A stretch of DNA of 64,000 nt, taken from the NCBI GenBank assembly GCA_018222585.1, contig JAAFAB010000002.1:248001-312000 (forward strand), written 5' to 3'. Of the stretch, positions 7,556 to 57,617 are shown piece after piece. The translations under genes were made by a program, and so were the position numbers. The stretch is from Paracoccaceae bacterium (GTDB lineage: Bacteria; Pseudomonadota; Alphaproteobacteria; Rhodobacterales; Rhodobacteraceae). Under the pieces are notes generated by a model that was given only the letters and a program-made list of their open reading frames with translations, made no database searches and was not told the origin of the DNA. The stretch's first letter is position 1. Each line of letters opens with the position of its first letter.

Positions 7556-7647
7556 CTTGATCATCACCAGGCTGGAAATACTCCGGGGGGCCCCTGTCGG
7601 GGATCGTCCGAAGGGCGATCCCCGACAGGGGCGGGGCAGAGCCCCCC
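7556..7647 (+). repeat. Three-hairpin intergenic element, copy 1 (right half only)
   Basis: Only the right arm of the first palindrome is present (subtype B, CATCACCAGGCTGGAAATAC, 7563-7582) with its CTCCGGGGGG tail. The middle hairpin is the largest of all copies: a 17-bp perfect stem pairing 7590-7606 with 7616-7632. The third hairpin is GGGGC-AGA-GCCCC at 7633-7645. It lies between convergent genes (lectin and UPF0173 hydrolase). Confidence 0.8.
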
Positions 7648-7655
7648 GCGACCTC

Positions 7656-8348
7656 TCACAGCTCGATGGCCTCCAGCACCTCGGGCTCGATCACATCGAC
7701 CCCGGGCAGCGCGGCCTTCAGCACATCTGCATTCTGCTCCAGCAGCGGGAAGGTGCGGTAGTGCATCGGAATGACCGTCTTGAAGTCGAAGAAGGTCTTC
7801 GCCGCATAGGCCGCCCGCTTCATGTCCATCGTGTAATGGCCCCCCGCGCAGAGAATGCCGATGTCGGGCTTGTGCAGATCGTGGAAGATCTTCATGTCCG
7901 CCATCACGTCGGTATCGCCCGAGAAGTAGATCACCCGGCCCTCGCCCTCGATGATGAAGCCCGATTCGGTGCCCAGGTAGATCGGCCCATGCGGCCCCTC
8001 GGTGGCGGAAGAGTGGGTGGCATGGACCATGGTCACCTTCACCCCGCCGATATCCACGGTGCCGCCCTTGTTGAAGCCCGTGGTCTCGACCCCGAACGTG
8101 TCGGCGACGTATTTCATCAGCTCGACCATGCCGAAGACCGGGATGCCCAGCTCCTCCGCCACGGGTCCGACATCCGACAGGTGATCGCCATGGCCATGGG
8201 TGCAGAAGATATGCGTCGCGCCGGCGATGGCCTCGGCGCGCTTCTCGTCGGGCAGCATCGGGTTTCCGCCCAGGAAGGGATCGAGCAGCAGAACCTTGTC
8301 CGCGATCTCGAGCCGAAAGGAGCCATGTCCGAGCCAGATCAGTTTCAT
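7656..8348 (-). CDS. UPF0173 metal-dependent hydrolase (beta-lactamase fold)
   Basis: This 230-residue protein has the HxHxDH metal motif (residues 51-56, HGHGDH), a later histidine in THSSATEG, the SGDTD aspartate, and HYRTFPLL near the C-terminus as the last ligand. These are the landmarks of the UPF0173 family of cytoplasmic MBL-fold hydrolases. The substrate is unknown. The gene is convergent with the lectin gene, with repeat copy 1 between them. Confidence 0.92.
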   Translation of the reverse strand: MKLIWLGHGSFRLEIADKVLLLDPFLGGNPMLPDEKRAEAIAGATHIFCTHGHGDHLSDVGPVAEELGIPVFGMVELMKYVADTFGVETTGFNKGGTVDIGGVKVTMVHATHSSATEGPHGPIYLGTESGFIIEGEGRVIYFSGDTDVMADMKIFHDLHKPDIGILCAGGHYTMDMKRAAYAAKTFFDFKTVIPMHYRTFPLLEQNADVLKAALPGVDVIEPEVLEAIEL

Positions 8349-8437
8349 CTTGAACCTCCAGATCTTTGCGCCGAGCCTGCATCGGCCCGGCCATTCAGGG
8401 CCAGAGCGTAGTGCCCCGACCCGCGAAGGAAAGCCCC

Positions 8438-9109
8438 TTGGACTGGACCCGCCCGATAGACGCCTATTGCGAACGCCTCGGCCCCGGCCTCTGGGCCGAG
8501 CCGCTGAATGCGCTGACCAACCTCGCCTTCCTGCTGGCCGCGATCTGGGTCTGGCCCCGGGTGAAGGGGCAGGGCACGGGGCAACTGCTGGCGGCGGTGC
8601 TCTTTGTCATCGGCCTCGGCTCGGGCCTGTTCCACACGCTGGCGAACAGCTGGTCCAGCCTGGCCGACACCCTGCCGATCCTCGCCTTCATCCTGATCTA
8701 CATCTTCGCCGCCACCCGCGACTTCCTCGAACGGCCGGTCTGGCAGTCGACCCTGATCGCCGCCGCCTTCCTGCCCTTCGCCGCGCTGACCACGCCGCTT
8801 TTCGCAAAGCTGCCCCTCTACGGTGTCAGCGCCCCCTACCTGCCGGTGCCGCTGCTGATCGCGCTCTACGGCGGAGTGCTGCGCCACTGGAAGCCGCAGA
8901 CGGCGCGGGGGCTGTTCATCGGGGCGGGGCTGCTGATGCTCTCGCTCACCTTCCGCTCGGCGGATGAGCTGACCTGCGGCGCGACGGCGGGCATCGGGAC
9001 GCATTTCCTGTGGCATGTGCTGAATGCGGTGATGCTGGCCTGGATGATCGAGACCTGGCGCCGCCATCAGGCGCTGCATGTGCTTGCGGGCAAGGCGCGC
9101 GGGCGCTAA
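8438..9109 (+). CDS. Ceramidase-like integral membrane protein (CREST family), TTG start
   Basis: This is a polytopic membrane protein of 223 residues with about seven hydrophobic segments. The motif SGLFHTLANSWSSLADTLPI (about residues 64-83) and the late GIGTHFLWHVLNA histidines fit the ceramidase/CREST superfamily of membrane hydrolases, which use H, S and D residues to hold a metal. TTG 8438 is preferred: it gives MDWTRPIDAYCERLGPG and has GAAGGA at 8425-8430 with 7-nt spacing. GTG 8411 and further upstream codons are in frame but lack such a site. The substrate is unproven; a lipid amide is a family-based guess. Confidence 0.8.
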   Translation: MDWTRPIDAYCERLGPGLWAEPLNALTNLAFLLAAIWVWPRVKGQGTGQLLAAVLFVIGLGSGLFHTLANSWSSLADTLPILAFILIYIFAATRDFLERPVWQSTLIAAAFLPFAALTTPLFAKLPLYGVSAPYLPVPLLIALYGGVLRHWKPQTARGLFIGAGLLMLSLTFRSADELTCGATAGIGTHFLWHVLNAVMLAWMIETWRRHQALHVLAGKARGR

Positions 9110-9140
9110 ACCCGACCCGATCCAGAACCAGGAGCATCCG

Positions 9141-9428
9141 ATGTCGATCGACAAGGCAACCGCCGCGAAAGTGGCGAAACTCGCCCGCATCAAGGTGGAA
9201 GAGGACGCGCTGCCCGCGCTGGCGGAAGAGTTCAACACCATCCTCGGCTTCATCGAGCAGCTGAACGAGGTCGATGTCGAGGGCGTCGAGCCGATGACCT
9301 CGGTCACGCCCATGCGGCTGAAACGGCGCGAGGACGTGGTGACCGAAGGCGGTCAGCAGGACAAGATCCTGGCCAATGCCCCCGATGCCCGCGAAGGCTT
9401 CTTCGCCGTCCCCAAGGTGGTCGAGTAA
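9141..9428 (+). CDS. gatC: Asp-tRNA(Asn)/Glu-tRNA(Gln) amidotransferase subunit C
   Basis: This 95-residue protein of normal length for GatC has the typical helical start (IDKATAAKVAKLARI) and the C-terminal segment with VEPMTSVTPM and DREGFF-like DAREGFFAVPKVVE that wraps around GatA. A Shine-Dalgarno (CCAGGAGC) precedes ATG 9141. gatA follows after 39 bp. GatB is not in the window. Confidence 0.96.
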   Translation: MSIDKATAAKVAKLARIKVEEDALPALAEEFNTILGFIEQLNEVDVEGVEPMTSVTPMRLKRREDVVTEGGQQDKILANAPDAREGFFAVPKVVE

Positions 9429-9467
9429 GACCAGGCCACAACGCCCGTTCAAGAGAGGCGAGACGAC

Positions 9468-10955
9468 ATGACCGAGCTGAACAAACTGACCATCGCCCAG
9501 GCCCGCGACGCGCTGAAGGCCGGCGAGACGACCTCGACCGCGCTGACCGAAAGCTGCCTGGCCGCCATCGACGCCGCCGACGCGCTGAACGCCTTCGTGC
9601 ACAAGACGCCCGAGCTGGCGCTGGAGCAGGCCAAGGTCGCCGATGCCCGCATCGCCGCCGGTGATGCGCCCGCGCTCTGCGGCATCCCGCTGGGCATCAA
9701 GGATCTTTTCTGCACCAAGGGCGTGCCCTCGCAGGCCGCCTCGAACATCCTCGAAGGCTTCAAGCCCGAGTATGAATCGACCGTCAGCCAGAACCTCTTC
9801 GACGCCGGTGCCGTGATGCTGGGCAAGCTGAACATGGACGAATTTGCCATGGGCAGCTCGAACGAGACCTCCTGCTACGGCAATGCCGTGAATCCCTGGC
9901 GCCGCGGCAATGACGACACCGCGCTGACGCCGGGCGGTTCCTCCGGCGGTTCGGCCTCGGCGGTCTCGGCAGACCTCTGCCTTGGCGCCACCGGCACCGA
10001 TACCGGCGGCTCGATCCGCCAGCCTGCGGCCTTCACCGGCATCACCGGCATCAAGCCGACCTATGGCCGCTGCTCCCGCTGGGGGATCATCGCCTTCGCC
10101 AGCTCGCTGGACCAGGCGGGCCCGATGACCAAGGACGTGCGCGATGCGGCGATCATGCTGCAGGCCATGTGCTCTCATGACCCGAAGGATTCGACCTCGG
10201 TCGACTTCCCGGTGCCCGATTTCGAAGCGGCGCTGACCGGCGATATCCGGGGTAAGACCATCGGCATCCCGAAGGAGTATCACCTCGACGGAATGCCCGA
10301 GGAAATCGACCAGCTCTGGACCCGCGGCAAGGAGATGCTGGCGGATGCCGGTGCCAAGGTGGTCGATATCTCTCTGCCCCACACCAAGTACGCCCTGCCG
10401 GCCTACTACGTGATCGCGCCCGCCGAGGCCTCCTCGAACCTGGCCCGCTACGACGGTGTCCGCTATGGCCACCGCGCCCGGCTGGCCCAGGGCGACGGCA
10501 TCACCGAGATGTACGAGAAGACCCGCGCCGAGGGCTTTGGCCACGAGGTGCAGCGCCGCGTCATGGTCGGCACCTACGTGCTGTCGGCGGGCTTCTACGA
10601 CGCCTATTACAACCGCGCCCGGAAGGTCCGTGCCCTGATCAAGAAGGATTTCGACGACGCCTTCGCGGCCGGGGTCGACGCGATTCTGACCCCGGCGACG
10701 CCGTCGGCCGCCTTCGGCCTGGGCGAGATGACCGAGGCCGATCCGGTGCAGATGTACCTCAACGACGTCTTCACCGTGACGGTGAACCTCGCCGGCCTGC
10801 CCGGGATCTCGGTTCCCGCCGGTGTCGACAAGCAGGGCCTGCCCCTCGGACTGCAGCTGATCGGCCGCCCGTGGGAAGAGGGCGATCTGCTGAACACCGC
10901 CTATGTGCTGGAACGTGCGGCAGGGTTTGTTTCCAAGCCGGCGAAATGGTGGTAA
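9468..10955 (+). CDS. gatA: Asp-tRNA(Asn)/Glu-tRNA(Gln) amidotransferase subunit A
   Basis: This 495-residue amidase-signature enzyme releases ammonia from glutamine for transamidation of misacylated tRNA. The Ser-cisSer-Lys triad is visible as K78 (in GIKDLF), S158 (in GGSSGGSAS) and S182 (in [11 protein letters not shown]). The full C-terminal region with [14 protein letters not shown] is present. An AGAGAGG-type ribosome site precedes the ATG. It is co-transcribed with gatC. Confidence 0.98.
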
Positions 10956-10961
10956 TCCGCC

Positions 10962-10983
10962 TGCCGTGGTCCTGGCCACGGCA
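10962..10983 (+). terminator. Weak hairpin downstream of gatA
   Basis: An 8-bp stem TGCCGTGG/CCACGGCA pairs 10962-10969 with 10976-10983, beginning 6 bp after the gatA stop. There is no T-run, so it may be a weak terminator or an RNA-stabilising hairpin. Confidence 0.4.
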
Positions 10984-11048
10984 TATCCCCGCTTGAGGGG
11001 CCAAGCCATGCGCGCCAGTATGGACCTGTCGCAGAGCGAGAGAGTGAC

Positions 11049-11825
11049 ATGCGCGAACTGACCTGGGCCATGGCCCTTCTGGGCCTTGCCTCCTGTGCCC
11101 CTGCCGTGCCCGACAGCGCGGCGGGCGTGGGGTTCGGAGATTACCAATCCTACCAGCAGCAGCGTGAGGCGCAGCTGCAGGCGCAGACCATCGCGCCGCC
11201 GGCTCAGGTTTCTTCCGAGACCCTGCCGGGGGCCGCGGGCACGCCGCTCTCTGCCATCGATGCCTTGCCGCCGGGGGCCCGCACGACGGAACCCGGTGCC
11301 GGTGAGGCCGACAGTGCCGAAGCCCTGGCCGCCGATACCCAGGCGGCGCTGATGGCGGCGCAGAACTCGGGCGAAGCGCCGCTGGACGCCTCGCCGTCCA
11401 ACCCGGCGCCCGAGGCCGTCAATGCGCTTGGCATCTCCGCCGAGAACGATTTCGCCGCCGTGGATGCGCAGCGGTCGATCGCCGAGGACCGCGAGTTCAT
11501 CCAGGAAAACCGCCAGCGGTACGAACAGGTCCAGCCCGAGGCCCTGCCCGAGCGTACCTCGGTGCGGCCCAACCTGGCGGCCTATGCGCTGGAGACCAGC
11601 CACGCGGTCGGCACCCCCCTCTACAATCGCATCGGCCTGCTGAACGCCGAGGCGCGGTATACCCGCAACTGCGGCAAATATCCCTCTCCCGACATGGCGC
11701 AGTCCGATTTCCTGGCCCGGGGCGGGCCGCAGCGCGACCGGTTGGGGATCGACCCCGACGGCGACGGTTTCGCCTGCACCTGGGATCCGGCCCCCTTCCG
11801 CAAGGCGGCGCGGGGCGGAAACTGA
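11049..11825 (+). CDS. Putative lipoprotein with Excalibur-like calcium-binding C-terminus
   Basis: This 258-residue protein begins with a short signal peptide and lipobox (LLGLASC, C16 lipidated). A low-complexity Ala/Gln/Pro-rich stretch of about 150 residues follows, then a compact C-terminal domain. That domain has NCGKYPSPD and a DPDGDGFACTWD loop, the DxDxDGxxC pattern of Excalibur-type extracellular calcium-binding domains. Two cysteines (in NCGK and FACTW) could form a disulfide. It is likely anchored in the inner or outer membrane facing the periplasm. The next gene, an amidase, starts 4 bp after its stop, suggesting a shared envelope role. Function is not established. Confidence 0.75.
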   Translation: MRELTWAMALLGLASCAPAVPDSAAGVGFGDYQSYQQQREAQLQAQTIAPPAQVSSETLPGAAGTPLSAIDALPPGARTTEPGAGEADSAEALAADTQAALMAAQNSGEAPLDASPSNPAPEAVNALGISAENDFAAVDAQRSIAEDREFIQENRQRYEQVQPEALPERTSVRPNLAAYALETSHAVGTPLYNRIGLLNAEARYTRNCGKYPSPDMAQSDFLARGGPQRDRLGIDPDGDGFACTWDPAPFRKAARGGN

Positions 11826-11829
11826 CCGC

Positions 11830-12579
11830 GTGACAAGGCAGGGCCAGGGCGTCGGCGCTCCGGGCGCGCGCTGGCATCCTTCGCCCAATTTCGGCGACCG
11901 GCGTAATGGGTTGGCCCCTGCGCTGGTCGTTCTGCACCACACCGCCATGCAGAGCGCCGAAGCCGCGCTGGAGCGTCTCTGTGACCCGCACTTCGCGGCG
12001 CCGGTCTCTGCCCACTACCTGATCGCCGAGGATGGCCGGCTGTGGCAGCTCGTGGACGAGCGCGCACGGGCCTGGCACGCGGGTGCCGGCTTCTGGGGCG
12101 GTGGCGGCGATGTCAATTCGCGCTCGATCGGGATCGAGCTGGCCAACCCCGCGCCCCATCCCTTCGCCGAGCCGCAGATGGCGCGGCTGGAGACCCTGCT
12201 GGCCGGTATCCTTGTCCGTTGGAATATTCCGCCCGAGGGGGTGATCGCCCACTCCGACATGGCGCCCGGGCGCAAGGCCGACCCCGGGCCGAAGTTCGAC
12301 TGGCGGCGGCTGGCGCGCCAGGGGCTGTCGGTCTGGCCCGATCCGCAGGCAGACACCGAGGGCGACCTGGCACAGGACCTGGCGCGGATCGGCTACCCGA
12401 CCGGGGACCTGGCGCTGGCCCTGCGGGCCTTCCGCCTGCGTTTCCGGCCCTGGGCCACTGGCGATGAAAGCGCTGCGGACCGCATCGCGGCCCGTGACCT
12501 CGCCGCGCGCTGTCCGGCGGGCGTCGCGCAGGGGGCGCTCGCCGGGGCATCGACAGCCGGGGCCGGCCCATGCTCCTGA
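11830..12579 (+). CDS. N-acetylmuramoyl-L-alanine amidase (AmiD/Amidase_2 type)
   Basis: This 249-residue protein has the zinc-amidase landmarks LHHTAM (H36/H37), the SIGIELAN strand and the late HSDMAPGRKADPG motif (H141, D151). It cleaves the amide between muramic acid and the stem peptide, and AmiD relatives act on wall fragments for recycling. There is no obvious signal peptide, so it may be cytoplasmic or exported with the upstream lipoprotein by other means. The start is GTG 11830, almost abutting the preceding stop. The C-terminal 40 residues are low complexity. Confidence 0.88.
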   Translation: MTRQGQGVGAPGARWHPSPNFGDRRNGLAPALVVLHHTAMQSAEAALERLCDPHFAAPVSAHYLIAEDGRLWQLVDERARAWHAGAGFWGGGGDVNSRSIGIELANPAPHPFAEPQMARLETLLAGILVRWNIPPEGVIAHSDMAPGRKADPGPKFDWRRLARQGLSVWPDPQADTEGDLAQDLARIGYPTGDLALALRAFRLRFRPWATGDESAADRIAARDLAARCPAGVAQGALAGASTAGAGPCS

Positions 12580-12589
12580 ACGCGGGGGA

Positions 12590-12702
12590 GGGGGCTTCGC
12601 CCCCCGTCCCTGCGGGCCTCCCCCCAGAGTATTTTCAGCCTGGTGATGGTATAAGAGCCCCCTGCATCTATCCGAGGGCTGAAAATACCCCCGCCGGAGG
12701 CA
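12590..12702 (-). repeat. Three-hairpin intergenic element, copy 2 (reverse orientation, chimeric arms)
   Basis: Reading along the + strand the order is reversed: GGGGGC-TTC-GCCCCC (12590-12604), a small CCC-TGC-GGG hairpin (12608-12616), then the long palindrome. Its arms GTATTTTCAGCC (12629-12640) and GGCTGAAAATAC (12677-12688) pair perfectly over 12 bp. The left interior is subtype B (CTGGTGATGG) while the right interior is subtype A (TCTATCCGAG), so this copy looks chimeric. It lies between the co-directional amidase and ymdB genes. Confidence 0.82.
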
Positions 12703-12823
12703 GCCCGGCCTTGCGATCCGGGACGGCGGGCCGTCCTGTTGCGCTGAACGGGAGGCTGGCGGCGGCCTGCGGGACCCGCGAAACACTTGCCTCCGGCGCG
12801 GTGGCGGCATAGGGCTTGGCGCC

Positions 12824-13645
12824 ATGCGGATGATGTTTCTCGGAGATGTGATGGGGCGCGCCGGGCGGGCCGCCATCGAGGAGTGGCTGCCGAAGCTGCG
12901 TGCGGCATGGCGGCTGGATTTCGTCGTGGTCAATGGCGAGAACGCCAGCCACGGGGCCGGGCTGACCGGCGCCCATGCCAGGCTGATCCTGGACGCGGGC
13001 GCCGATGTGGTGACGCTTGGCGATCATGCCTTCGACCAGAAGGACATGCTGCAGGCCATCGAGGGCGACAAGCGTATCCTGCGGCCGCTGAACTACGCCA
13101 AGGAATGCCCCGGCGTCGGCGCCCGCGTCTTCGAGGCCCCCGGCGGGCGCAAGGTGCTGGTGATGCAGGTGCTGGGCCAGGTCTTCATGAAACGGCCTTT
13201 CGAGGATCCGTTCAGCCATGTCGACGCGGTGCTGCGCAAGTACCCTCTCGGCGGGCTGGTGCAGGCGACCCTCGTCGATGTCCACTGCGAGGCGACCTCC
13301 GAGAAGATGGCCATGGGCCATTTCTGCGACGGGCGGGCGTCGATGGTGGTGGGGACGCATACCCATGTGCCGACGGGCGATGCGCAGATCCTGCCGCGCG
13401 GCACCGCCTTCCAGTCCGACGCGGGCATGACAGGCGATTACGATTCGGTCATCGGCATGGACAAGGCCGAGCCGCTGCGCCGCTTCGTCACCGGCATGGC
13501 CAGGGGGCGGTTCACGCCGGCCGAGGGCGAGGCCACGGTCTCGGGCCTCTATGTCGAGACCGACGACCGCACCGGCAAGGCGACTCGGGTCGAGATGGTG
13601 CGGCAGGGCGGACGCCTGGCGGCTTCCGGGCCCGGACCGGTCTAG
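12824..13645 (+). CDS. ymdB: YmdB-family metallophosphoesterase (TIGR00282)
   Basis: This 273-residue protein has the calcineurin-like dinuclear metal motifs of the YmdB family: GDVMGRAGR at the N-terminus, VVNGENAS, TLGDHAFDQ, VDVHCEATSEK and VGTHTHVPTGD. Characterised relatives are 2',3'- or 3',5'-cyclic nucleotide phosphodiesterases. In Bacillus the protein affects biofilm and motility decisions. All metal-binding segments are intact. It is cytoplasmic, with no signal peptide. The permease gene follows 170 bp downstream. Confidence 0.93.
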   Translation: MRMMFLGDVMGRAGRAAIEEWLPKLRAAWRLDFVVVNGENASHGAGLTGAHARLILDAGADVVTLGDHAFDQKDMLQAIEGDKRILRPLNYAKECPGVGARVFEAPGGRKVLVMQVLGQVFMKRPFEDPFSHVDAVLRKYPLGGLVQATLVDVHCEATSEKMAMGHFCDGRASMVVGTHTHVPTGDAQILPRGTAFQSDAGMTGDYDSVIGMDKAEPLRRFVTGMARGRFTPAEGEATVSGLYVETDDRTGKATRVEMVRQGGRLAASGPGPV

Positions 13646-15594: not shown

Positions 15595-15651
15595 AGCGCC
15601 GGGCGAACGGGCCCGGCCCAATGGGGCCAGGGATCACGGCCCCTCGTCACA

Positions 15652-16758: not shown

Positions 16759-16761
16759 CGA

Positions 16762-19599: not shown

Positions 19600-19612
19600 T
19601 CACAGGCATCCC

Positions 19613-24875: not shown

Positions 24876-26321
24876 ATGGTTCAGGTTCTGAGAAGCTTTC
24901 TGGTTGCCGGGACGGTCGGTCTGGCATCCGTGGCAGGTGTGTCGCTGGCGCAGGACGCCACCGTGCAGACCAAGCAGTACGAGGATGGCGGGGTCTACGA
25001 AGGCACCTTCAAGGACGGCCTCCAGGACGGGTTCGGCACCTACCGGCTGCCCAATGGCTACGAGTACACCGGCGACTGGGTGGCGGGCGAGATCCGCGGC
25101 CAGGGCCGTGCCGCTTTCCCCAATGGCTCGGTCTACGAGGGCGAATTCGCCAAGGGCAAGCCGGAGGGATTCGGCAAGATCACCTTCTCGGACGGCGGCA
25201 CCTACGAGGGCGCCTGGGTCGACGGCAAGATCACCGGCCAGGGGATCGCGGACTATGCCAACGGCGTCCGCTACGAAGGGGATTTCCGCAACGCCATGCA
25301 CCATGGACGGGGCCGGATGGAGAACCCGGACGGCTATGTCTATGAGGGCGACTGGGTCAACGGCGTCAAGGAGGGGCAGGGGCGCATCACCTATCCCGAC
25401 GGCACCACCTACGAGGGCGGCATCAGCAGCGGCCAGCGTGACGGCGAGGGTACGCTGGTCATGGCCGACGGGCTGACCTACGAGGGCGACTGGGTCGAGG
25501 GCCAGATCGAGGGGCAGGGGAAGCTGACCCAGCCCAATGGCGATATCTACGAAGGCACCCTGGTCGCCGGCCAGCGCGAGGGCGAAGGCCGTGTCACCTA
25601 TGCCAATGGTGATGTTTACCAAGGCAGCTTCCTGGCCGACCAGCGCGAGGGGCAGGGCACGTTTACCGGCGCCGACGGCTACCGCTACGAAGGCCAGTGG
25701 CAGGGCGGCAAGATCTCTGGCGACGGCCAGGTCACCTATCCCGACGGTTCGGTCTACGAGGGCCAGTTCGCCGGCGACCTTGCCGATGGTCGCGGCAGGA
25801 TCACCTATCCCGACGGCGCCACCTACGAAGGGGACTGGGTCGGCGGCGTGATCGAGGGACAGGGCGTTGCGACCTTCCCCTCTGGCCTCACCTACGAGGG
25901 CAGTTTCAAGGCGGCACAGAATCACGGCTATGGCGTGATGCGCGACGGCGAAGGCTATGTCTACGAGGGCACCTGGGCCGAGGGCCAGCGCGAGGGCGAG
26001 GGCAAGGCTACCTATCCCGACGGCATGGTCTACGAGGGCGGCTTCAAGGCCGGCCTGCGGGACGGCACCGGCAAGATCACCATGCCCGACGGTTTCGTCT
26101 ACGAAGGTGACTGGGCCGCGGGCGAGATGACCGGCAAGGGTGTCGCGACCTACAAGAACGGTGATGTCTACGAGGGCGATTTCGTCGAAGGCCGCCGCGA
26201 GGGCCAGGGCACCCTGACCTATGCCAGCGGCGAGGTGCTTACGGGCACCTGGGTCGGCGGCGTGCTGGAAGAGGGCGCCGCCAGCCAGGGACAGCCCACA
26301 GAGGACACCGAGACCCAGTGA
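24876..26321 (+). CDS. Exported MORN-repeat protein
   Basis: This 481-residue protein has a signal peptide (VLRSFLVAGTVGLASVAG, cleavage expected after SLA). From residue 39 there are 18 consecutive MORN units of exactly 23 residues with no insertion or deletion, and a 19th partial unit at 453. The consensus is xxYEGDWxxGxxxGxGxxTYPDG. Position 7 of the unit alternates F and W over most of the array, which implies a 46-residue duplication unit. MORN arrays in eukaryotes bind membranes or proteins; in bacteria the role is unclear. The acidic tail GQPTEDTETQ ends the protein. A ribosome site (CAGGGAG) precedes ATG 24876. Confidence 0.92.
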   Translation: MVQVLRSFLVAGTVGLASVAGVSLAQDATVQTKQYEDGGVYEGTFKDGLQDGFGTYRLPNGYEYTGDWVAGEIRGQGRAAFPNGSVYEGEFAKGKPEGFGKITFSDGGTYEGAWVDGKITGQGIADYANGVRYEGDFRNAMHHGRGRMENPDGYVYEGDWVNGVKEGQGRITYPDGTTYEGGISSGQRDGEGTLVMADGLTYEGDWVEGQIEGQGKLTQPNGDIYEGTLVAGQREGEGRVTYANGDVYQGSFLADQREGQGTFTGADGYRYEGQWQGGKISGDGQVTYPDGSVYEGQFAGDLADGRGRITYPDGATYEGDWVGGVIEGQGVATFPSGLTYEGSFKAAQNHGYGVMRDGEGYVYEGTWAEGQREGEGKATYPDGMVYEGGFKAGLRDGTGKITMPDGFVYEGDWAAGEMTGKGVATYKNGDVYEGDFVEGRREGQGTLTYASGEVLTGTWVGGVLEEGAASQGQPTEDTETQ

Positions 26322-32486: not shown

Positions 32487-32561
32487 ACCCCTTGCCCCTA
32501 TCCGATGGCTGAAAAGACTGCGGGGGAGTCTCCGGTACGGAGACGGGGGGCAGCGCCCCCC
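32487..32561 (+). repeat. Three-hairpin intergenic element, copy 3 (right half only)
   Basis: Only the right arm remains (CTATCCGATGGCTGAAAAG, from 32498, then CTGCGGGGG). The middle hairpin is GTCTCCG-GTA-CGGAGAC (32528-32544) and the third is GGGGGGC-AGC-GCCCCCC (32545-32561). It lies between the convergent photolyase and rimO genes. Confidence 0.82.
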
Positions 32562-36305: not shown

Positions 36306-36424
36306 GACGCCTCCGGCGGGAGTATTTCCAGCCATCGAATGGATGCAGGGGCCCCTTCCATCTATTCGACGGCTGGAAATACTCCGGGGGAGTCCGCCTC
36401 GGGCGGACGGGGGCAGAGCCCCCC
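36306..36424 (+). repeat. Three-hairpin intergenic element, copy 4 (complete)
   Basis: This is the fullest forward copy. GCCTCCGGCGGG leads into arm 36319-36340, which pairs with 36364-36385 over 22 bp with one mismatch, and the palindrome continues almost to its centre at GGGGCCCC. The middle hairpin GTCCGCC-TCG-GGCGGAC is at 36392-36408. The third, GGGGGC-AGA-GCCCCC, follows at 36409-36423. It lies between the convergent AsmA-like and gcrA genes. Confidence 0.9.
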
Positions 36425-36433
36425 AGCCCACCA

Positions 36434-36462
36434 ATGAAAAAGAGCTCCGGCGGGGGCTCTTC
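36434..36462 (-). terminator. Rho-independent terminator of gcrA
   Basis: On the minus strand an 8-bp stem (AGAGCCCC with GGAGCTCT, one G-U pair; 36441-36460) with a CGCC loop is followed by TTTTT. It lies 23 bp after the gcrA stop. Confidence 0.88.
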
Positions 36463-36483
36463 TCATCACGATAACCGATCAGC

Positions 36484-39667: not shown

Positions 39668-39870
39668 GCCTCCGGCGGGAGTATTTCCGGCCTCAGAATG
39701 GAACAGGTCACACCCGAACTGGCTGCGGCCTTTCGCAATGGAGGGCTCGGGCCCTCACAATGGCAGAAGGAGGCCGCCTCTCCGGGCCCTGTCCCGCTTC
39801 ATCACCAGGCTGAAAGTACTCCGGGGGTGAATTGAGACCATAAGGGCTCAAGAGGGGGCAGCGCCCCCTT
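39668..39870 (+). repeat. Three-hairpin intergenic element, copy 5 (arms separated, mixed subtypes)
   Basis: A left arm (GCCTCCGGCGGGAGTATTT, 39668-39686) is separated by about 110 bp from a subtype B right arm (CATCACCAGGCTGAAAGTAC, 39800-39819, then CCGGGGG). The middle hairpin is TTGAG/CTCAA (39832-39836 with 39847-39851), AT-rich unlike other copies. The third is GGGGGC-AGC-GCCCCC (39854-39868). The arms do not belong to the same subtype, so this may be two half elements. It lies between argD and meaB. Confidence 0.75.
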
Positions 39871-40854: not shown

Positions 40855-40992
40855 GCAGCCCCTCCGTTTGCCCCGGGTCTAGCCGCTGCGGGGGCGCCGC
40901 GTCCAGAGGCGGCTCTCCTGCCGCCCCAGGGGACAGTCAGGGCTACCCACGTGGCCGGTGGGCGACATGGATAGGATGGAGAGGGCGCAGAA

Positions 40993-41046
40993 GGGCTCTG
41001 CCCCCGTCGCCCCTGGCGACTCCCGCCGGGGAGACTTCGAAACAGG
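40993..41046 (-). repeat. Three-hairpin intergenic element, copy 8 (reverse, degenerate half)
   Basis: Reading the + strand: GGGC-TCT-GCCC (40993-41003, inside a longer C-run), then the middle hairpin GTCGCC-CCT-GGCGAC (41006-41020), then TCCCGCCGGGGAGACTTC, a degenerate version of the GTCCCCCGCAGTATTTTC arm. It is the only copy between divergent genes (meaB and hrpB). Confidence 0.6.
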
Positions 41047-44063: not shown

Positions 44064-44090
44064 TCCCTTCGATCCTTCGAAGATTTCGAC

Positions 44091-44122
44091 AGCCCTGCCA
44101 TCCGGCGGGGCTGTTTGCTTTT
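44091..44122 (+). terminator. Rho-independent terminator of rpmB
   Basis: A 9-bp stem (AGCCCTGCC with GGCGGGGCT, one G-U pair; 44091-44112) with an ATCC loop is followed by GTTTGCTTTT. It lies 27 bp after the rpmB stop. Confidence 0.9.
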
Positions 44123-44137: not shown

Positions 44138-44255
44138 GGGGGGCTCTGCCCCCCTCTCCGTGCCGGAGAGTCCCCCGCAGTATTTTCAGCCATCGGATAG
44201 GAACAAGGGCACCTTTGCTCTAACCGATGGCTGAAAATACTGCCGCCGGAGGCCC
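44138..44255 (-). repeat. Three-hairpin intergenic element, copy 6 (reverse, complete)
   Basis: The order on the + strand is: third hairpin GGGGGGC-TCT-GCCCCCC (44138-44154), middle hairpin TCTCCG-TGC-CGGAGA (44155-44169), then the long palindrome with perfect 20-bp arms (44177-44196 with 44224-44243), ending TGCCGCCGGAGGC. It lies between the convergent rpmB terminator and the sirtuin gene. Confidence 0.9.
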
Positions 44256-45503: not shown

Positions 45504-45683
45504 GCGCTTGCCGGGGCAGCGGCGCGACGCTATCCTTTTCGTACGGTCGGCAGAACCGAGGCGCGCTGCCCCGCGAGGGGAGGCTAAACCCTGCCATTCA
45601 GACCAGGCCAGCGGATCCATCTTCCCTCGTGCCCCGCGTCCAGGCAGCGACCGACGATTTCCCGGGCACGCCACGAGGACAAG

Positions 45684-46235
45684 ATGCCCCGACAGCTCAT
45701 TCCCCTGACCCATCCCGATGTCTCGACCTTCGCCCGCAGCCTCTCGCGCCAGCTGGCGGCAGGGGGCGAGGCGCCCTCGCACCTGGCGCTGATGAACATG
45801 CTGGCGCGCGCGGCGGGCTATCGCAATTTCCAGCAGATGCGCGCCTCTTCCGCTGCCGGGACACGGCTGGAGAGGGTCGCCGCCGCCCCCGCCGACCTGC
45901 GCGCGGTCGAGCGGGCGCTGCACCAGTTCGACGCCACCGGGCGGCTGCGCCACTGGCCCGCGAAGCGGCAGGTCAGGGCGCTCTGCCTGGCGGCGCTCTG
46001 GGCCCGCCTGCCCGCCGGGACGCTGATGCGCGAGGCCGAGGTCAATGCCCTGCTGAATGCCGCCCATCTGTTCGCCGATCCGGCGCAGTTGCGGCGCGAG
46101 CTGGTGTCGGAGGGGCTGGTGCGGCGCAACCGCGACGGATCGGACTACCGCCGGGTCGAAGTCGCGCCCTCGGCAGAGGCCCGGGCGCTCATCGGCCAGC
46201 TGGCCAAACGCCGGAAGGAAGCCGCGGATGCCTGA
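45684..46235 (+). CDS. DUF2087 domain protein
   Basis: This 183-residue protein has an N-terminal helical region (about 1-75) and a C-terminal DUF2087 domain, recognisable by WPAKRQVRALCLAALW, LLNAAHLFADPAQLRRELV and GLVRRNRDGSDYRRVE. DUF2087 is winged-helix-like and often fused to regulators. A DNA- or RNA-binding role is possible but unproven. Its last 8 bp overlap the next gene. Confidence 0.85.
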   Translation: MPRQLIPLTHPDVSTFARSLSRQLAAGGEAPSHLALMNMLARAAGYRNFQQMRASSAAGTRLERVAAAPADLRAVERALHQFDATGRLRHWPAKRQVRALCLAALWARLPAGTLMREAEVNALLNAAHLFADPAQLRRELVSEGLVRRNRDGSDYRRVEVAPSAEARALIGQLAKRRKEAADA

Positions 46236-51848: not shown

Positions 51849-51860
51849 GGCTGGCTCCTT

Positions 51861-51886
51861 TTTATTTCCGACCGTTCGGAAATAAA
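51861..51886 (-). promoter_or_regulatory. Probable TetR operator
   Basis: Arms TTTATTTCCGA (51861-51871) and TCGGAAATAAA (51876-51886) are perfect 11-bp inverted repeats around CCGT. The AT-rich dyad stands out in a GC-rich region and overlaps the leader of the TetR gene. Confidence 0.82.
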
Positions 51887-52050
51887 GTGACCCGCAGCAT
51901 GCTGTCAAGCCATCTGCCGCCGCCGGGCCCGCGATGTCACGGCGAAAAGCCGCCCCGCGTGTCCCGGGCCGACAGGGTTGGCGGATCTCGCGGCCCTCCC
52001 CCGTCACAGCCCTTGCCAAACGCCTTTTTCCCCCGCATATGCTGCCGATC

Positions 52051-53850
52051 ATGACCGATCTCGCGCATATCCGTAACTTCTCCATCGTTGCCCATATCGA
52101 CCACGGGAAATCCACCCTGGCCGACCGGCTGATCCAGTCCACCAACACCGTCTCGGAACGCGAGATGAAGGAGCAGCTGCTCGACGCGATGGATATCGAG
52201 CGGGAACGCGGGATCACCATCAAGGCGAACACCGTGCGGATCGAGTACATCGCCGACAATGGCGAGCTCTACGTGCTGAACCTGATCGACACCCCCGGTC
52301 ACGTGGACTTTGCCTACGAGGTCTCCCGCTCGATGCACGCGGTCGAGGGCTCGCTGCTGGTGGTCGACAGCACGCAAGGGGTCGAGGCGCAGACGCTGGC
52401 GAACGTCTACCAGGCCATCGACGCCAACCACGAGATCATTCCGGTCCTCAACAAGATCGACCTGCCCGCCAGCGAACCCGAGCGGGTGAAGGAGCAGATC
52501 GAGGACGTGATCGGTATCGACGCCTCCGAGGCGCTGCTGGTCTCGGCGAAATCCGGCCTCGGCATCCACGAGACGCTGGAGGCGATCTGCCACCGCCTGC
52601 CCGCACCCCAGGGCGACCGCGATGCTCCGCTGAAGGCGATGCTGGTGGACAGCTGGTACGACAGCTACCTCGGCGTCGTCGTGCTGGTGCGCGTCATGGA
52701 CGGCGTGATGAAGAAGAACGACCGCGTGAAGTTCATGCGCAACGGCACGGTGCACCAGGTCGACCGGATCGGCGTCTTCCGCCCGGCGATGCAGAACGTG
52801 GACGAACTGGGCCCCGGCGAGATCGGCTTCATCACCGCCTCGATCAAGCAGGTGCGCGACACCAAGGTCGGCGACACGATCACCCATGACAAGAAGGGCA
52901 CCGACAAGGCGCTGCCGGGCTTCAAGCCCTCGATCCCCGTCGTCTTCTGCGGCCTCTTCCCGGTGGACTCCGCCGAATTCGAGGACCTGCGCGACGCGAT
53001 CGAGAAACTGGCCCTCAACGACGCCTCCTTCAGCTATGAAATGGAAACCTCGGCGGCGCTGGGCTTCGGCTTCCGCTGCGGCTTCCTGGGCCTGCTGCAC
53101 CTCGAGGTGGTCCGCGACCGGCTGGAGCGCGAATACAACATCGAGCTGATTACCACGGCGCCCTCGGTGGTCTACCATGTCCACATGAAGGACGGGACGA
53201 TGCAGGAGCTGCACAACCCCGCCGACATGCCTGACCTGACCTATGTGGATCACATCGAGGAACCGCGCATCAAGGCCACCATCATGGTGCCGGACGAGTA
53301 CCTCGGCGACGTGCTGAAGCTCTGCCAGGAGCGCCGTGGCATCCAGCTGGAGCTGACCTATGCCGGCACCCGCCCGCTGGTCGAATACGACCTGCCGCTG
53401 AACGAGGTGGTGTTCGATTTCTACGACCGGCTGAAGTCGGTCACCAAGGGCTATGCCTCCTTCGACTACCAGATGATCGGTTACCGCCAGGACAACCTGG
53501 TGAAGATGCAGGTGCTGGTGAACGACGAGCCGGTGGATGCGCTATCCATGATGGTGCACCGCGACCGCGCCGAGATGCGCGGCCGTGCCATGTGCGAGAA
53601 GCTGAAGGAGCTGATCCCGCGCCACATGTTCAAGATCCCGATCCAGGCGGCCATCGGCGGCAAGGTGATCGCGCGCGAGACGCTTTCGGCGATGCGCAAG
53701 GACGTGACGGCCAAGTGCTACGGCGGCGACGCCACCCGAAAGCGCAAGCTGCTGGACAAGCAGAAGGCCGGCAAGAAGAAGATGCGCCAGTTCGGGAAGG
53801 TGGATATCCCGCAGGAGGCGTTCATCTCGGCGCTGAAGATGGATAGTTGA
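52051..53850 (+). CDS. lepA: Elongation factor 4
   Basis: This 599-residue translational GTPase back-translocates stalled ribosomes. G1 is AHIDHGKS (residues 14-21), and the later G motifs DTPGHVDF and NKIDLP are intact. The C-terminal LepA-specific domain with [18 protein letters not shown], then [18 protein letters not shown] is complete. ATG 52051 gives the standard length; ATG 52039 is in frame. A terminator follows. Confidence 0.98.
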
Positions 53851-53855
53851 GGGGG

Positions 53856-53880
53856 ACCCGGGCGAGAGCCCGGGTTTTTC
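53856..53880 (+). terminator. Rho-independent terminator of lepA
   Basis: An 8-bp perfect stem ACCCGGGC/GCCCGGGT (53856-53875) with a GAGA loop is followed by TTTTTC. It begins 6 bp after the lepA stop. Confidence 0.93.
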
Positions 53881-53908
53881 TTTGGGGATGGGCCCTCGGC
53901 GGGGCAGT

Positions 53909-53930
53909 GGTGGATTTCATCCACCCTACA
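53909..53930 (-). repeat. REP-like hairpin abutting the RAYT stop codon
   Basis: GGTGGAT-TTC-ATCCACC (53909-53925) is a perfect 7-bp hairpin directly followed on the + strand by CTA, the RAYT stop (TAG) in reverse. The combined GTAGGGTGGAT...ATCCACC pattern is the kind of REP associated with these transposases. It is unrelated in sequence to the three-hairpin elements. Confidence 0.75.
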
Positions 53931-54477
53931 CCAACAGCCCCGGCCTCGCCTCCCGCTCTCCAAAGCACCCCTCCGGCACCGCCCCGCTCCAATCCGCCTC
54001 CACCCGTCCTTCACGGATATCCCGGTGGATCGAAGAGAACTCCCAGTCTACCGCCCGGCGAACCAGCCCGTGTTTCACCGGATTGCCCCAGCAATAGCGC
54101 AGGTGCAGATCCATATCCCGATCCCCCCGGATATGCTGCTCCCAGTAGCGCCGCTGCCAGATGCCGACCTCTCCCTTGCGCCGCTTGCCCGGGCTCACTG
54201 CCACCCGATGCTTTACCCGTTTGCTGAACTCCGCCTTGATCGCCTGCCAGCGCACCGGATAGTCGGCGTCGCCCGGCGGCAGGGTCCAGAGGCAGTGCAT
54301 GTGATCGGGCAGGACCACCCAGGCGTCGATGGCGAAGGGACGGCGCAGGCGCTCGACCATGACCGCCTCGCGCAGGGCGCAGACCTCGCGCACCAGCAGG
54401 TCCGAGCTGCGGTCGCGCAGGCAGACCGTGAAGAAGATCGAGGCGCCGGGCAGGCGGGGGCGGATATAGCTGGCCAT
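53926..54477 (-). CDS. REP-associated tyrosine transposase (RAYT)
   Basis: This 183-residue Y1/HUH-type transposase-like protein has the HUH motif in VVLPDHMHCLWTL and a region GIWQRRYWEQHIR, then YCWGNPVKHGLV, both diagnostic of the RAYT group. RAYTs are single-copy genes thought to process REP hairpins rather than move themselves. It is convergent with lepA. A hairpin is fused to its stop codon, but no clear copy is seen on the 5' side. The C-terminal tail is unconserved. Confidence 0.92.
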   Translation of the reverse strand: MASYIRPRLPGASIFFTVCLRDRSSDLLVREVCALREAVMVERLRRPFAIDAWVVLPDHMHCLWTLPPGDADYPVRWQAIKAEFSKRVKHRVAVSPGKRRKGEVGIWQRRYWEQHIRGDRDMDLHLRYCWGNPVKHGLVRRAVDWEFSSIHRDIREGRVEADWSGAVPEGCFGEREARPGLLV

Positions 54478-54690
54478 GCGGCCATGGTGGCGCAGGGGTG
54501 GTTAACAAAGCGTGGGCAGGCGCCATGCGCCGCCGGTGGCCCACATCGCGCGGACCGTGCCGCATCCTGGGGTGGGAGACATCCCTTCAGGCCCGCACCG
54601 GTCGGCGCCGGGTCGCGGATGGGGCCATGAACACCGAAAGGCTGCGCCGTGGTGCGCGTCGGGGTGCATCCGTCGAAGATTCCCCGCACG

Positions 54691-54722
54691 AAAAAGGCCG
54701 GCGACCCTGGGGGCGCCGGCCT
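54691..54722 (-). terminator. Terminator of the first entericidin-like gene
   Basis: A 9-bp stem AGGCCGGCG/CGCCGGCCT (54695-54722), read on the minus strand, is followed by TTTTT (54695-54691). It lies 24 bp after the small gene's stop. Confidence 0.88.
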
Positions 54723-54746
54723 GATACTGATGCCGTAAGCGGGGGC

Positions 54747-54884
54747 TTACATGCCTGCCTGGGTCTGCCTGGCTTCACCCTCGATGATGGTGCCGGCCTT
54801 CTGAATGTCCCGGCCCGCGCCTTCGATTGTTTCGCAGGCCGCAAGCCCGGAAAGGGCCAGCAGGCAGATGGCGATTCTGATCAT
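54747..54884 (-). CDS. Entericidin-like small lipoprotein, copy A
   Basis: This 45-residue protein has a signal peptide and lipobox (LALSGLAAC, C17). The mature part ETIEGAGRDIQKAGTIIEGE is the entericidin A/B pattern. The frame was read directly codon by codon. Entericidins in enterobacteria form a toxin-antidote lipoprotein pair linked to stationary-phase lysis; in alphaproteobacteria the role is unproven. GAGGGA precedes ATG 54884, and a terminator follows. Confidence 0.88.
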   Translation of the reverse strand: MIRIAICLLALSGLAACETIEGAGRDIQKAGTIIEGEARQTQAGM

Positions 54885-54970
54885 TCCAATCCCTCGACAT
54901 GATGTTGATCCGGGCGAAATCCTAGGCGCAGGCCCGGGGGCCGTCCAGCCTCAAGCGAGGGCAGTCGGGA

Positions 54971-55120
54971 TTACATTTCGGCCTGGGTTTCCTGAGCCTC
55001 GCCCTCGATGGTCTGGCCTGCGCTCTGGATGTCCTGGCCGGCACCCTCGATGGTCTCGCAAGCGGACAGCGCCAGCAAGGCGGCGAAAAGGGCGGCGGTG
55101 CGGGTCGTGATACGGGTCAT
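54971..55120 (-). CDS. Entericidin-like small lipoprotein, copy B
   Basis: This 49-residue paralogue of the gene at 54747 has lipobox LALSAC and mature part ETIEGAGQDIQSAGQTIEGE. ATG 55120 has a good GGAGACAG site and gives the usual length; an in-frame ATG 11 codons upstream adds charged residues before the signal and is unlikely. The two genes lie 86 bp apart on the same strand. Confidence 0.88.
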   Translation of the reverse strand: MTRITTRTAALFAALLALSACETIEGAGQDIQSAGQTIEGEAQETQAEM

Positions 55121-55337
55121 TTCTGTCTCCTGTTTCGGTTTCCGCAAACCCAACCCGCGAGCGGGGGCAGAGGTTCCGCTGCCCGCCTCGGCGGGGCCTC
55201 GTCCCGACGCGTTGGAGCTGTCCGTGACGACAGGCCCGAGAACTCGCCTGACGACCCACCGGAGGGGATTTTCGATTGGCGCCCCGGCATGGGCGGCCCG
55301 GAGTGCGCCGCGCGCCGTGGCCGGGCCCGGCCCTGTC

Positions 55338-56096
55338 CTAACCCAGGAAGGCGGCCACGGTGGCCTCGAACTCGCGCGGCTTCTCGGCGTGCAGCCAGTG
55401 GCCGGCGCCCGGGATCCGGGCGAAACGGGCCTTGGGGAACAGCGCCTTGATGCGCGGGCGGTACTCGGACTTGACGTAGTGGCTTTCGGCCCCGGAAAGG
55501 AAAAGCGTCCTGCCTTCGAAGGGTCCTTCCAGATCCTCGGGGAAGGAGAGGATCTTGCCCATCTCCGCCTCCAGTACGTCGAGGTTCAGCCGCCAGCGCC
55601 TGCCGGGCAGATCGAGGCTCTGGGTGAAAAAGCTCTGCAGCGCCTTTTCGACCCCGACCTCGGCCAGCTGCGCCTCGGCGTCAGAGCGGCGGCTGACGGT
55701 GTCCAGGTCGACGGAGCGCATGGCGTCGATGTACTGCTGCTGGCTATGGCCATAGGCGACAGGGGCGATGTCGGCGACGACCAGCCGCGCCACCCGTTCG
55801 GGGTGGCTGAGGGCCAGTGTCATCGCCGCCTTGCCGCCCATCGAATGCCCCAGGACGTGACAGGGCCGTCCCTCGGCGGCAATGACCTCGGCCAGGTCGG
55901 CGGCCATGGCCGGATAGCTGTGCTCGGTGGCACGGAAGGACTCGCCGTGGTTGCGCATGTCGACCGCGATCACCTGCCGGTCTGCCGAGAGGCGCTTGGC
56001 GATCACGCCCCAGTTGCGCCCCGAGCCGAACAGCCCATGGGCGATGACGAGCGGAGTGGCGTCGGCGGGGCCGTCCTGGCGGATCACGTTCAGCAT
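55338..56096 (-). CDS. Alpha/beta hydrolase (YbfF-like esterase)
   Basis: This 252-residue protein has HGLFGSGRNWG (oxyanion region), the nucleophile elbow GHSMGGKAA (S85), VADIAPVAYGH and the final catalytic His in GAGHWLHAEKP. This matches the YbfF/ABHD11-like esterases of soluble acyl-CoA or ester substrates. It is divergent from the next small gene. Confidence 0.92.
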   Translation of the reverse strand: MLNVIRQDGPADATPLVIAHGLFGSGRNWGVIAKRLSADRQVIAVDMRNHGESFRATEHSYPAMAADLAEVIAAEGRPCHVLGHSMGGKAAMTLALSHPERVARLVVADIAPVAYGHSQQQYIDAMRSVDLDTVSRRSDAEAQLAEVGVEKALQSFFTQSLDLPGRRWRLNLDVLEAEMGKILSFPEDLEGPFEGRTLFLSGAESHYVKSEYRPRIKALFPKARFARIPGAGHWLHAEKPREFEATVAAFLG

Positions 56097-56251
56097 GGGG
56101 CAGGGATAGCCCGCCCCGGCGCGCGGCGCCAGAGGGCACAGGACCCCGCGGTGCGCCCTGCCGGCCCGAGCTCTGTGCCGGGCAAGCGCAATGGCTTGCC
56201 CTTCCGCCCTGCGCGGCGGTATCCTGCCCCATCACCGCGAGGGAGGACGCC

Positions 56252-56629
56252 ATGGGCTCTGACAAACTGGACAGGAGCATGGGGCGCAGCGAGAAGGGGC
56301 TGCGTCGCAAGATGGGCGGCCGCCGTCCGCTGCGCGGCGGCAGTTTCGACAGCCTCGTGGCACGGGCCGGACGAGAGTTGCCGGGCCGCGCGCGGCGCGA
56401 GGCGAAGCAGATCCAGGCGGTGAAGGCCCAGATGCAGCATCCGCGGCTGGCGGCCCGGATGGACCCGGGGCAGCTCTCGGGCGCGTTCCGCCGTCTGGAC
56501 CGCGCGGTGGCGCAGTGGAACCCGCGCAGGCGGCGACGCAACATGTGGCTGGATGCCCTGGCCGGGTACGCCTTCAACATGCTGCTGTTCCTCGGCCTCG
56601 GGCTGGCCTTCCTCAGCACCCTGGGCTGA
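56252..56629 (+). CDS. Small basic protein with a C-terminal membrane segment
   Basis: This 125-residue protein is arginine-rich over residues 1-95 and ends with one hydrophobic segment (YAFNMLLFLGLGLAFLSTLG) that could be a tail anchor. I do not recognise the family. Its 3' end overlaps the convergent DUF817 gene by 17 bp. A GGGAGG ribosome site precedes the ATG. Confidence 0.65.
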   Translation: MGSDKLDRSMGRSEKGLRRKMGGRRPLRGGSFDSLVARAGRELPGRARREAKQIQAVKAQMQHPRLAARMDPGQLSGAFRRLDRAVAQWNPRRRRRNMWLDALAGYAFNMLLFLGLGLAFLSTLG

Positions 56630-57458
56630 AGGGCGCCCGGCGCAGGCTGTCACGCATGACAAGCGTCACCGTGGTGAAGCTGACGAAGAACAGCAGGTAC
56701 CAGGATCCCATCTTCGACAGCGGTACCAGTTCGAAACTGCCCTGGCCGTGGTAGATCCAGGTCCCCGAGGCGGTGCCGATGTTCTCGGCCACCCAGAGCG
56801 CGAAGGCGATCAGCAGGGCAGCCAGCGGAAAGGGCATCCAGTGCCAGCGGCGCAGGCTGAACCACATCCGGCTGCGCCAGAACAGCAGCAGCGTTGCGGC
56901 AAAGAGCGCCAGCCGGATGTCGGGCAGCCAGTGGTGGGCGAAGAAGTTGACGTAGATCGCCACGGCAAGCACCACCGAGGCCCAGAACGGCGGATAGGGC
57001 GCGATGACGGCACCGAACAGCCGGAAGGCCCGCGCGATGTAGGAGCCGACAGAGGCATACATGAAGCCGGTGAACAGCGGCACGTCGAAGAGCTTCAGGA
57101 CCCCCGGCTCGGGATAGGCCCAGGATCCGGCATGAACCTTGAACCACTCCATCACCGTGCCGGTGAGATGAAACAGCAGGATCACCTTTGCCTCGTCCCA
57201 GGTCTCCAGCTTGGTGGCGATCAGCAGCACCTGGACGGATACCGCCAGCAGCACCAGGAAGTCATAGCGCGCCAGGGCCCAGCCATCTTGCCACAGCGCC
57301 GAGGTTATCAGCAGCGCCGTCAGGATAATCCCGGCGAAAAGCCCCGCCCAGACCTGCCGCAACAGGAACAGCAGGGCGGACTGCAGCCAGCCTGGCAGAG
57401 GGCTCCGCGCCAGCAGCGCGGCATCGGGTCGAAGGGAGGAGGCATTCATGGCCGCCAT
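56613..57458 (-). CDS. DUF817 integral membrane protein
   Basis: This 281-residue protein has about eight hydrophobic segments. The family landmarks TKLETWDEAKVILLFHLTGTVMEWFK and SYIARAFRLF plus NFFAHHWLPDIR are present. DUF817 is a bacterial membrane family of unknown role. ATG 57458 may be replaced by ATG three codons downstream (MNASSL). Confidence 0.88.
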   Translation of the reverse strand: MAAMNASSLRPDAALLARSPLPGWLQSALLFLLRQVWAGLFAGIILTALLITSALWQDGWALARYDFLVLLAVSVQVLLIATKLETWDEAKVILLFHLTGTVMEWFKVHAGSWAYPEPGVLKLFDVPLFTGFMYASVGSYIARAFRLFGAVIAPYPPFWASVVLAVAIYVNFFAHHWLPDIRLALFAATLLLFWRSRMWFSLRRWHWMPFPLAALLIAFALWVAENIGTASGTWIYHGQGSFELVPLSKMGSWYLLFFVSFTTVTLVMRDSLRRAPFSPGC

Positions 57459-57504
57459 GTTGCGTGAAAGGCAGGCGCTGTCCAGTCGGCAGCGATGGGT
57501 TGGC

Positions 57505-57617
57505 TCCGGCGGCAGTATTTTCGGCCGTCGGATAGATGTAGCGGGCTCTTCCCCCTATCCGATGGCCACAAGTACTGCGGGGGGCGGCGCAGCCGACGGG
57601 GGCAGAGCCCCCCCTTT
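57505..57617 (+). repeat. Three-hairpin intergenic element, copy 7 (complete, imperfect arms)
   Basis: Arms 57512-57535 and 57555-57578 pair over 24 positions with a few mismatches (subtype A, GTCGGATAG with CTATCCGATGG). The middle hairpin is CGGC-GCA-GCCG (57585-57595) and the third is GGGGGC-AGA-GCCCCC (57598-57612), followed by CCTTTT. It lies between DUF817 and the MaoC gene, both on the minus strand. Confidence 0.85.

Follow-up and report, generated by a model that had tools for sequence, protein, structure and literature searches.

Hairpin half-units in inverted pairs, dispersed behind genes of Rhodobacteraceae and carrying tails that differ between genera

A 64,000-nucleotide stretch of a Paracoccaceae bacterium genome (GenBank GCA_018222585.1, contig JAAFAB010000002.1, positions 248,001 to 312,000), hereafter the window, carries in its intergenic spacers a repeated palindromic element, of which a sequence-only reading had listed copies at 7556, 12590, 32487, 36306, 39668, 40993, 44138 and 57505. 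Analysis of the genome to which the window belongs (own genome; 5.15 Mb, 63 contigs) revealed that the element is built from modules, each module being a half-unit made of one or two stem-loops, followed by a near-invariant GGAGTATTT and then by a lineage-specific 12-nt tail. Half-units of type A begin with GCCTCCGGCGGGAGTATTT; those of type B run from GGGGGCTCTGCCCCC through a second, free-sequence hairpin to CTCCCCCGGAGTATTT. The dispersed copies of a genome were found to share a tail that switches from genus to genus, the least expected result of this work and one that is new here.

Eight copies in the window

The view that the eight copies have one layout had to be abandoned, as five are complete A-B elements, two are B units only and one is a decayed B unit. 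Sites 12590, 36306, 39668, 44138 and 57505 combine the long palindrome with both the second and the GGGGGC hairpin; 7556 and 32487 retain only the right half with its two short hairpins, and 40993 represents a decayed right half. The unit patterns at up to three mismatches missed 40993 as well as the right half of 57505. The copies, together with two separate terminators identified by eye, are as follows.

7570..7648, minus strand: B unit only (7570-7591, minus), its second hairpin unusually long, plus a GGGGCAGAGCCCC hairpin
12589..12701, minus strand: complete element with a short core; B unit with hairpins 12589-12648 (plus), A unit 12677-12701 (minus)
32499..32561, minus strand: B unit only, both hairpins present
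36309..36425, plus strand: complete A-B element with a short core; A unit 36309-36333 (plus), B unit and two hairpins 36363-36424 (minus)
36437..36463, minus strand: separate canonical hairpin and T-run terminator of gcrA, lying between that gene and the element
39668..39869, plus strand: complete element with a long core, behind meaB; A unit 39668-39692 (plus), B unit with hairpins 39800-39869 (minus)
40990..41040, plus strand: decayed B unit between the divergent genes meaB and hrpB
44089..44122, plus strand: separate canonical hairpin and T-run terminator of rpmB, preceding the element
44138..44253, minus strand: complete element with a short core; B unit with hairpins 44138-44199 (plus), A unit 44229-44253 (minus)
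57502..57617, plus strand: complete element with a short core; A unit 57502-57526 (plus), diverged B half to about 57617 (minus)

The element at 44138..44253 has counterparts behind rpmB in genomes G003 and G016 and in P. marinus (L168), and features similar to the T-run terminators of rpmB and gcrA are present in relatives. Genes were called with a codon-usage caller seeded on atp genes, a procedure checked by family searches that named 9/10 proteins in one set and 10/10 in another (two proteins being shared between the sets). These calls agreed with the contexts previously assigned to the copies, placing four of them between convergent genes (7556, 32487, 36306 and 44138) and one between divergent genes (40993); the sites at 12590, 39668 and 57505 are tandem. 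The description of the copies as repeated, intergenic, present in both orientations and devoid of coding content was likewise borne out, with families of direct and inverted repeats linking the named places, and the interpretation of a dispersed intergenic multi-hairpin element is supported. The density of one copy per 8 kb holds in the window but not across the genome, where the 132 sites in 5.15 Mb average about one per 39 kb.

Seven window copies, all but 39668, were folded and compared with dinucleotide shuffles. Folding clearly beat the shuffles in four (z = -7.9 at 36306, -7.6 at 44138, -5.3 at 7556 and -3.2 at 57505) and showed a weak excess or none in three (z = -1.8 at 12590, -1.4 at 32487 and -0.8 at 40993). 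No Rfam family scored above its gathering score at the window copies, and permissive searches of six loci returned only sub-threshold matches at the elements. The G+C content of the window (67.7%), along with the three of seven folded copies that do not exceed shuffles, might suggest that chance and a generic GC-rich, terminator-like composition account for the repeat. The left motif, however, occurs in the own genome at 71 places with up to one mismatch, 54 of them exact, and at none when the pattern is read backwards, which excludes chance. Backward controls of the unit patterns were likewise zero, and the resemblance is not limited to composition, since hairpin positions covary and matches to the B model described below are restricted to one family (0/40 genomes outside it). 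Already refuted by the controls, chance retains next to no probability.

Half-units, inverted pairs and covariation

Further copies were sought in the own genome with pattern A (GCCTCCGGCGGGAGTATTTYCRGCC, up to three mismatches) and pattern B (CTCCCCCGGAGTATTTYCRGCC), the same patterns read backwards serving as controls. Pattern A matched 91 places, of which five overlapping B were removed to leave 86 A half-units; pattern B matched 103 places, 100 of which enter the analyses; each control returned none. The 86 A and 100 B half-units thus read (186) make up 132 sites. A GGGGGC-GCCCCC hairpin conforming to a strict pattern lies within 60 nt upstream of 86/100 B copies. Of the 86 A units, 28 are preceded within 32 nt by a perfect hairpin with a stem of 6 bp or more, compared to 4.4 in shuffles, so that most A units are without a hairpin of that strength. 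Neither the consensus from 86 A plus 97 B units nor that from 56 B units has a GTAG/GTRG-type head ahead of the palindrome. A sub-type of unit A in the own genome, GCCTTCGGCGAGAGTATTT (for example C20:642487-642511, C39:24662-24686, C46:498585-498609, C30:87975-87999 and C46:182659-182683), carries two changes that would preserve one pairing register.

The half-units combine into 52 inverted pairs, 43 of them A-B, six B-B and three A-A, with two pairs sharing one B unit (C20:269614); A-B pairs exceed the expectation of random pairing (p 2e-6). Base pairing between the tails of an inverted A-B pair yields a single long hairpin, whose loop mostly takes one of two sizes. The gap between unit ends falls into two size classes, 34-39 nt in 30/52 pairs and 112-122 nt in 18/52, and lies elsewhere in four. 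Arms were more alike within pairs (identity 0.867) than after permutation (0.770; maximum of 2000 permutations, 0.811), and in four pairs both sides show the same substitution at the base ahead of AGTATTT. The patterns leave 37 A and 46 B units single, some of which have a diverged partner; 24 A and 38 B units are without a partner of up to three mismatches. Unit identity was 0.922 in doublets vs 0.894 in singlets for A, and 0.876 vs 0.855 for B, values that are bounded by the search pattern and carry no significance test.

The covariance model and the searches of the genome and of relatives that the sequence-only reading had suggested were carried out, the model being built not on the eight window copies but on 56 own-genome B copies (54 distinct) from the 86 with a strict outer hairpin; the other 30 were left out for length or by choice. 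In this alignment the outer hairpin is almost invariant. In the second hairpin, both sides change in 6/6 base pairs and the covariation score is 0.350 vs 0.102, a value reached by 0/500 shuffles, although related copies may inflate these counts; the signal vanishes when partners are slid. No covariation was seen in the short CTCC/GGAG stem next to TATTT, where 15% of cells are unpaired.

Position behind genes and occurrence in relatives

The panel comprised 22 genomes of the window's genus (own included), 38 other genera of its family, which is Rhodobacteraceae going by the names of relatives, and 40 genomes outside the family. In a search run with stricter filters and considering at most 53 candidates per genome, the B model matched 22/22 genus genomes, 28/38 other genera and 0/40 genomes outside; in all, 50/60 family genomes had a match, in agreement with the similar strings that the sequence-only reading had noted for other Rhodobacteraceae. 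Pattern A at up to one mismatch matched 22/22, 26/38 and 3/40, respectively. The matches outside the family are near control level, as there was one in each genome and the control produced five in 100 genomes. Nine of the 38 other genera had neither an A-pattern nor a B-model match. G010 had the fewest B-model matches in the genus (8) and was also the sole genome among the 22 with a Y2-transposase match. A deeper search of eight other genera yielded 25 to 124 copies each at E <=1e-5, and 80 named loci around argD (1.6 Mb), with titles mostly of Rhodobacteraceae genera and some only of Rhodobacterales or Alphaproteobacteria metagenome-assembled genomes, held 10 A and 11 B units, none in genes, for a control of 0. 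The repeat had no match in phage records and matched four plasmid records (Salipiger, Marinibacterium and two Paracoccus); another query matched two.

In the own genome, none of the 86 A units and one of the 100 B units lay within a gene. The 132 sites divide into 54 convergent, 69 tandem, six divergent and three unclassified. In the unit-free intergenic bases of this one window, from which the expectation was drawn, 13% are convergent and 38% divergent; on that basis convergent spacers are preferred (p 2e-16) and divergent spacers, with 6/129 classified sites vs 38% expected, are avoided (p 4e-19). Units in tandem contexts were 56 sense and 43 antisense (p 0.23). In the other genera, a non-random set of 70 loci from eight genera was read, 30 of them taken from among the best-scoring copies and 40 picked from the listed part of the same ranking. 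None lay in genes, 33 were convergent, 30 tandem and five divergent, two had a neighbor missing, and the tandem copies showed no strand preference (15 sense, 15 antisense). The units follow stop codons closely: 47/60 A units with an upstream gene on the same strand begin within 60 nt of its stop, and in 35/49 such B units of other genera the CCCCC run lies 30-65 nt past the stop (mostly the two hairpins).

Such positions bring to the fore the main rival to the interpretation proposed below, in which the repeat is a resident, two-way 3'-end element whose RNA stem-loops past the stop codon would end transcription or shield mRNA from 3' exonucleases. The short distance to stop codons, the covarying second hairpin and the 54/132 convergent sites all speak for it. 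So does meaB, behind which 7/8 alignable genus genomes (own included) keep some unit, judged by eye, despite its changing between B, A and A-B. Clusters of hairpins have moreover been proposed as terminators (PMC8355165), and intrinsic terminators share with the repeat stem-loops close behind stop codons. The repeat nevertheless departs from intrinsic terminators in having no long U-run, no strand preference and a tail that is alike across a whole genome. Against a 3'-end role, tandem copies show no strand preference in other genera or in the own genome, the stem beside TATTT is without covariation and partly unpaired, and ordinary T-run terminators of rpmB and gcrA precede the element. A terminator ahead of the unit was found at 24/124 3' ends with a sense unit vs 21/83 without a unit, no clear difference, and the scanned lengths differ. 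A 3'-end role also leaves unexplained why the copies of a genome have similar tails while genera differ in them, and we regard it as somewhat unlikely.

Further readings were set aside. The even tandem orientations in other genera speak against an ordinary one-way terminator; an intrinsic terminator with a U-run directly after a stable hairpin disagrees both with these orientations and with the hairpin on the TATTT side, which does not covary; and a small open reading frame (ORF) starting in the tail (GGAG, then ATGAAG) suffers from a long spacing and from the occurrence of AAGAAG in several genera.

Tail dialects and the search for a mover

The 12-nt tail begins after GGAGTATTT and two free bases. 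Tails were compared in 64 copies from six other genera plus 14 copies drawn at random from the own genome. Their identity was 0.79 within and 0.48 between genomes, and in 500 label shuffles the two values never differed by more than 0.046; for the hairpin region the values were only 0.49 within and 0.45 between genomes. The commonest tails were AGCGAAATGAAG in G052 (9/14), GGCCAGAAGAAG in G048 (7/14) and GGCTCGATGAAA in G037 (3/12), and at least two kinds occur in the own genome, CCTGGTGATG and CC(A/G)TCGAATG. The likeness of tails within a genome and their difference between genera point to a putative factor that reads, spreads or uses the units.

One such factor could be a chromosome-wide DNA-binding protein for which the units are sites, either comparable to gyrase at bacterial interspersed mosaic elements or recognizing an uptake or chromosome-organizing signal, and whose specificity drifted between genera. 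The near-invariant GGAGTATTT, the tail dialects, the lack of strand preference and the preference for convergent spacers would suit this. A double-stranded site, however, needs neither a covarying hairpin of free sequence nor two loop sizes, and no candidate protein has been named. DNA uptake sequences of Neisseriaceae form genus dialects around a conserved core and often occur as inverted pairs behind genes, which makes them similar to the present units; they also occur in coding DNA, where the present units do not, and compared to them the repeat has far fewer copies, almost none in genes, and hairpins of free sequence that covary. Binding sites of this kind appear to us improbable, more so than a 3'-end role.

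Other systems invite comparison. RIME/ABC elements of Rhizobium and Sinorhizobium are intergenic mosaic elements of alphaproteobacteria. By description rather than by sequence, the repeat resembles them as a palindromic intergenic repeat of obscure function, but its B model matches 0/40 genomes outside the window's family. A miniature inverted-repeat transposable element of a DDE transposon would share terminal inverted repeats with a transposase gene and come with a target duplication; here the inverted tails sit inside the element. REPINs and repetitive extragenic palindromic (REP) sequences come with RAYT transposases. REPINs occur as singlets and as inverted doublets whose loops have preferred sizes and whose arms show compensatory changes, with a sequence particular to each lineage (PMC3116915). 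The present repeat shares with REPINs and REPs (PMC3116915, PMC2817692) a short conserved unit, singlets and inverted doublets, preferred spacers, a hairpin with compensatory changes, extragenic position and lineage-specific sequence. The four complete pairs folded formed the corresponding inverted-doublet hairpin with z = -7.9, -7.6, -3.2 and -1.8. Unlike REPINs and REPs, it has no Y1/RAYT match in the genus, pairs two unit types as A-B, bears its conserved hairpins outside and its pairing tails inside, is strongly biased to gene ends and keeps the same core in most tested genera of a whole family. No earlier description of the repeat was found in a literature search of partial coverage, so that an older report may exist, nor in the parts consulted of PMC5107571, PMC2873474, PMC3116915, PMC2817692 and PMC8355165.

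On these grounds we interpret the repeat as a family of non-autonomous, REPIN-like palindromic elements that are specific to Rhodobacteraceae and, in the window's genus, come without a RAYT transposase, an interpretation in which our confidence is evenly balanced. The inverted pair would be, or would formerly have been, copied as a hairpin by a putative trans-acting enzyme reading the tail, with single units as possible remnants or half-copies. Copies would survive behind genes, where promoters are unharmed, and may double as two-way 3'-end structures.

A number of results weigh against this interpretation, beginning with the possible inflation of the covariation counts mentioned above. Tandem single units of the own genome lean toward the sense orientation (27 vs 14, i.e. 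27/41; p 0.06). Of seven comparable window sites, six are occupied in G003 (87-92% DNA identity) and six in G016 (83-85%), and conservation is higher in unit cores than in the rest of the spacer (0.92 vs 0.85 in G003, 0.86 vs 0.68 in G016); the shared sites and conserved cores would fit a resident element with a useful role no less well. One double-counted pair aside, no two copies of the own genome exceed 91% identity over 80% of their length, so that there is no sign of recent copying, and the six alignments examined contained neither a clean empty site nor a target duplication. As to a mover, Y1 (RAYT, PF01797) matched 0/22 genus genomes, own included, in a search that matched the E. coli control, and 1/14 other genera searched. 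A Y2 transposase was rejected, its only match among the 22 genus genomes being in the one with the fewest B matches. No autonomous copy was found: between the four pairs of facing units that stand 2.5-3.5 kb apart there are ordinary genes, with no transposase among those named and two cut frames outside the scan. Since Y1 and Y2 are mostly absent and none of the genes named between facing pairs is a transposase, we propose a tail-reading factor of another kind.

Over longer times the sites do turn over, occupancy differing between species. The 40993 element is missing at that spot in both G003 and G016, G016 has an additional element at 15595, and site 12580 is taken in the congeners G017 and G021 by an A-B element that points the other way and has a different tail, GACAAGGTGAAG. 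At L253, L255, L256, L262 and L264, the rpmB-cobB spacer is without the element, measures 0.7-0.9 kb and appears by eye to contain a small extra ORF. A mixed history, with a mobile origin and later use at gene ends, would fit as well. More speculatively, a family-wide hairpin system with genus tail dialects and a trans-acting reader other than Y1 or Y2 could constitute a new structure-guided mobile element or chromosome-wide recognition system, a possibility that we raise tentatively.

If the copies are moved or used by a reader of the 12-nt tail, many Rhodobacteraceae would hold a previously undescribed REP-like system without RAYT, and from the dialect pattern one would expect the gene of the reader to change along with the tail and to be lacking from the 9/38 match-free genera. 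If they act at RNA 3' ends instead, they would be a major unannotated feature of the 3' untranslated regions of Rhodobacteraceae.

Elsewhere in the window, the Rfam family RF02940 (COG3860 RNA, cis-regulatory) matched above its gathering score at 45544-45596 (plus strand), upstream of a DUF2087 protein encoded at 45684-46235. The ORF at 3-1538 (minus strand) contains repeats of about 51 nt, with a weak, sub-cut-off match to RTX calcium-binding repeats, and a MORN-repeat protein with a DNA period of 69 nt is encoded at 24939-26321 (plus strand).

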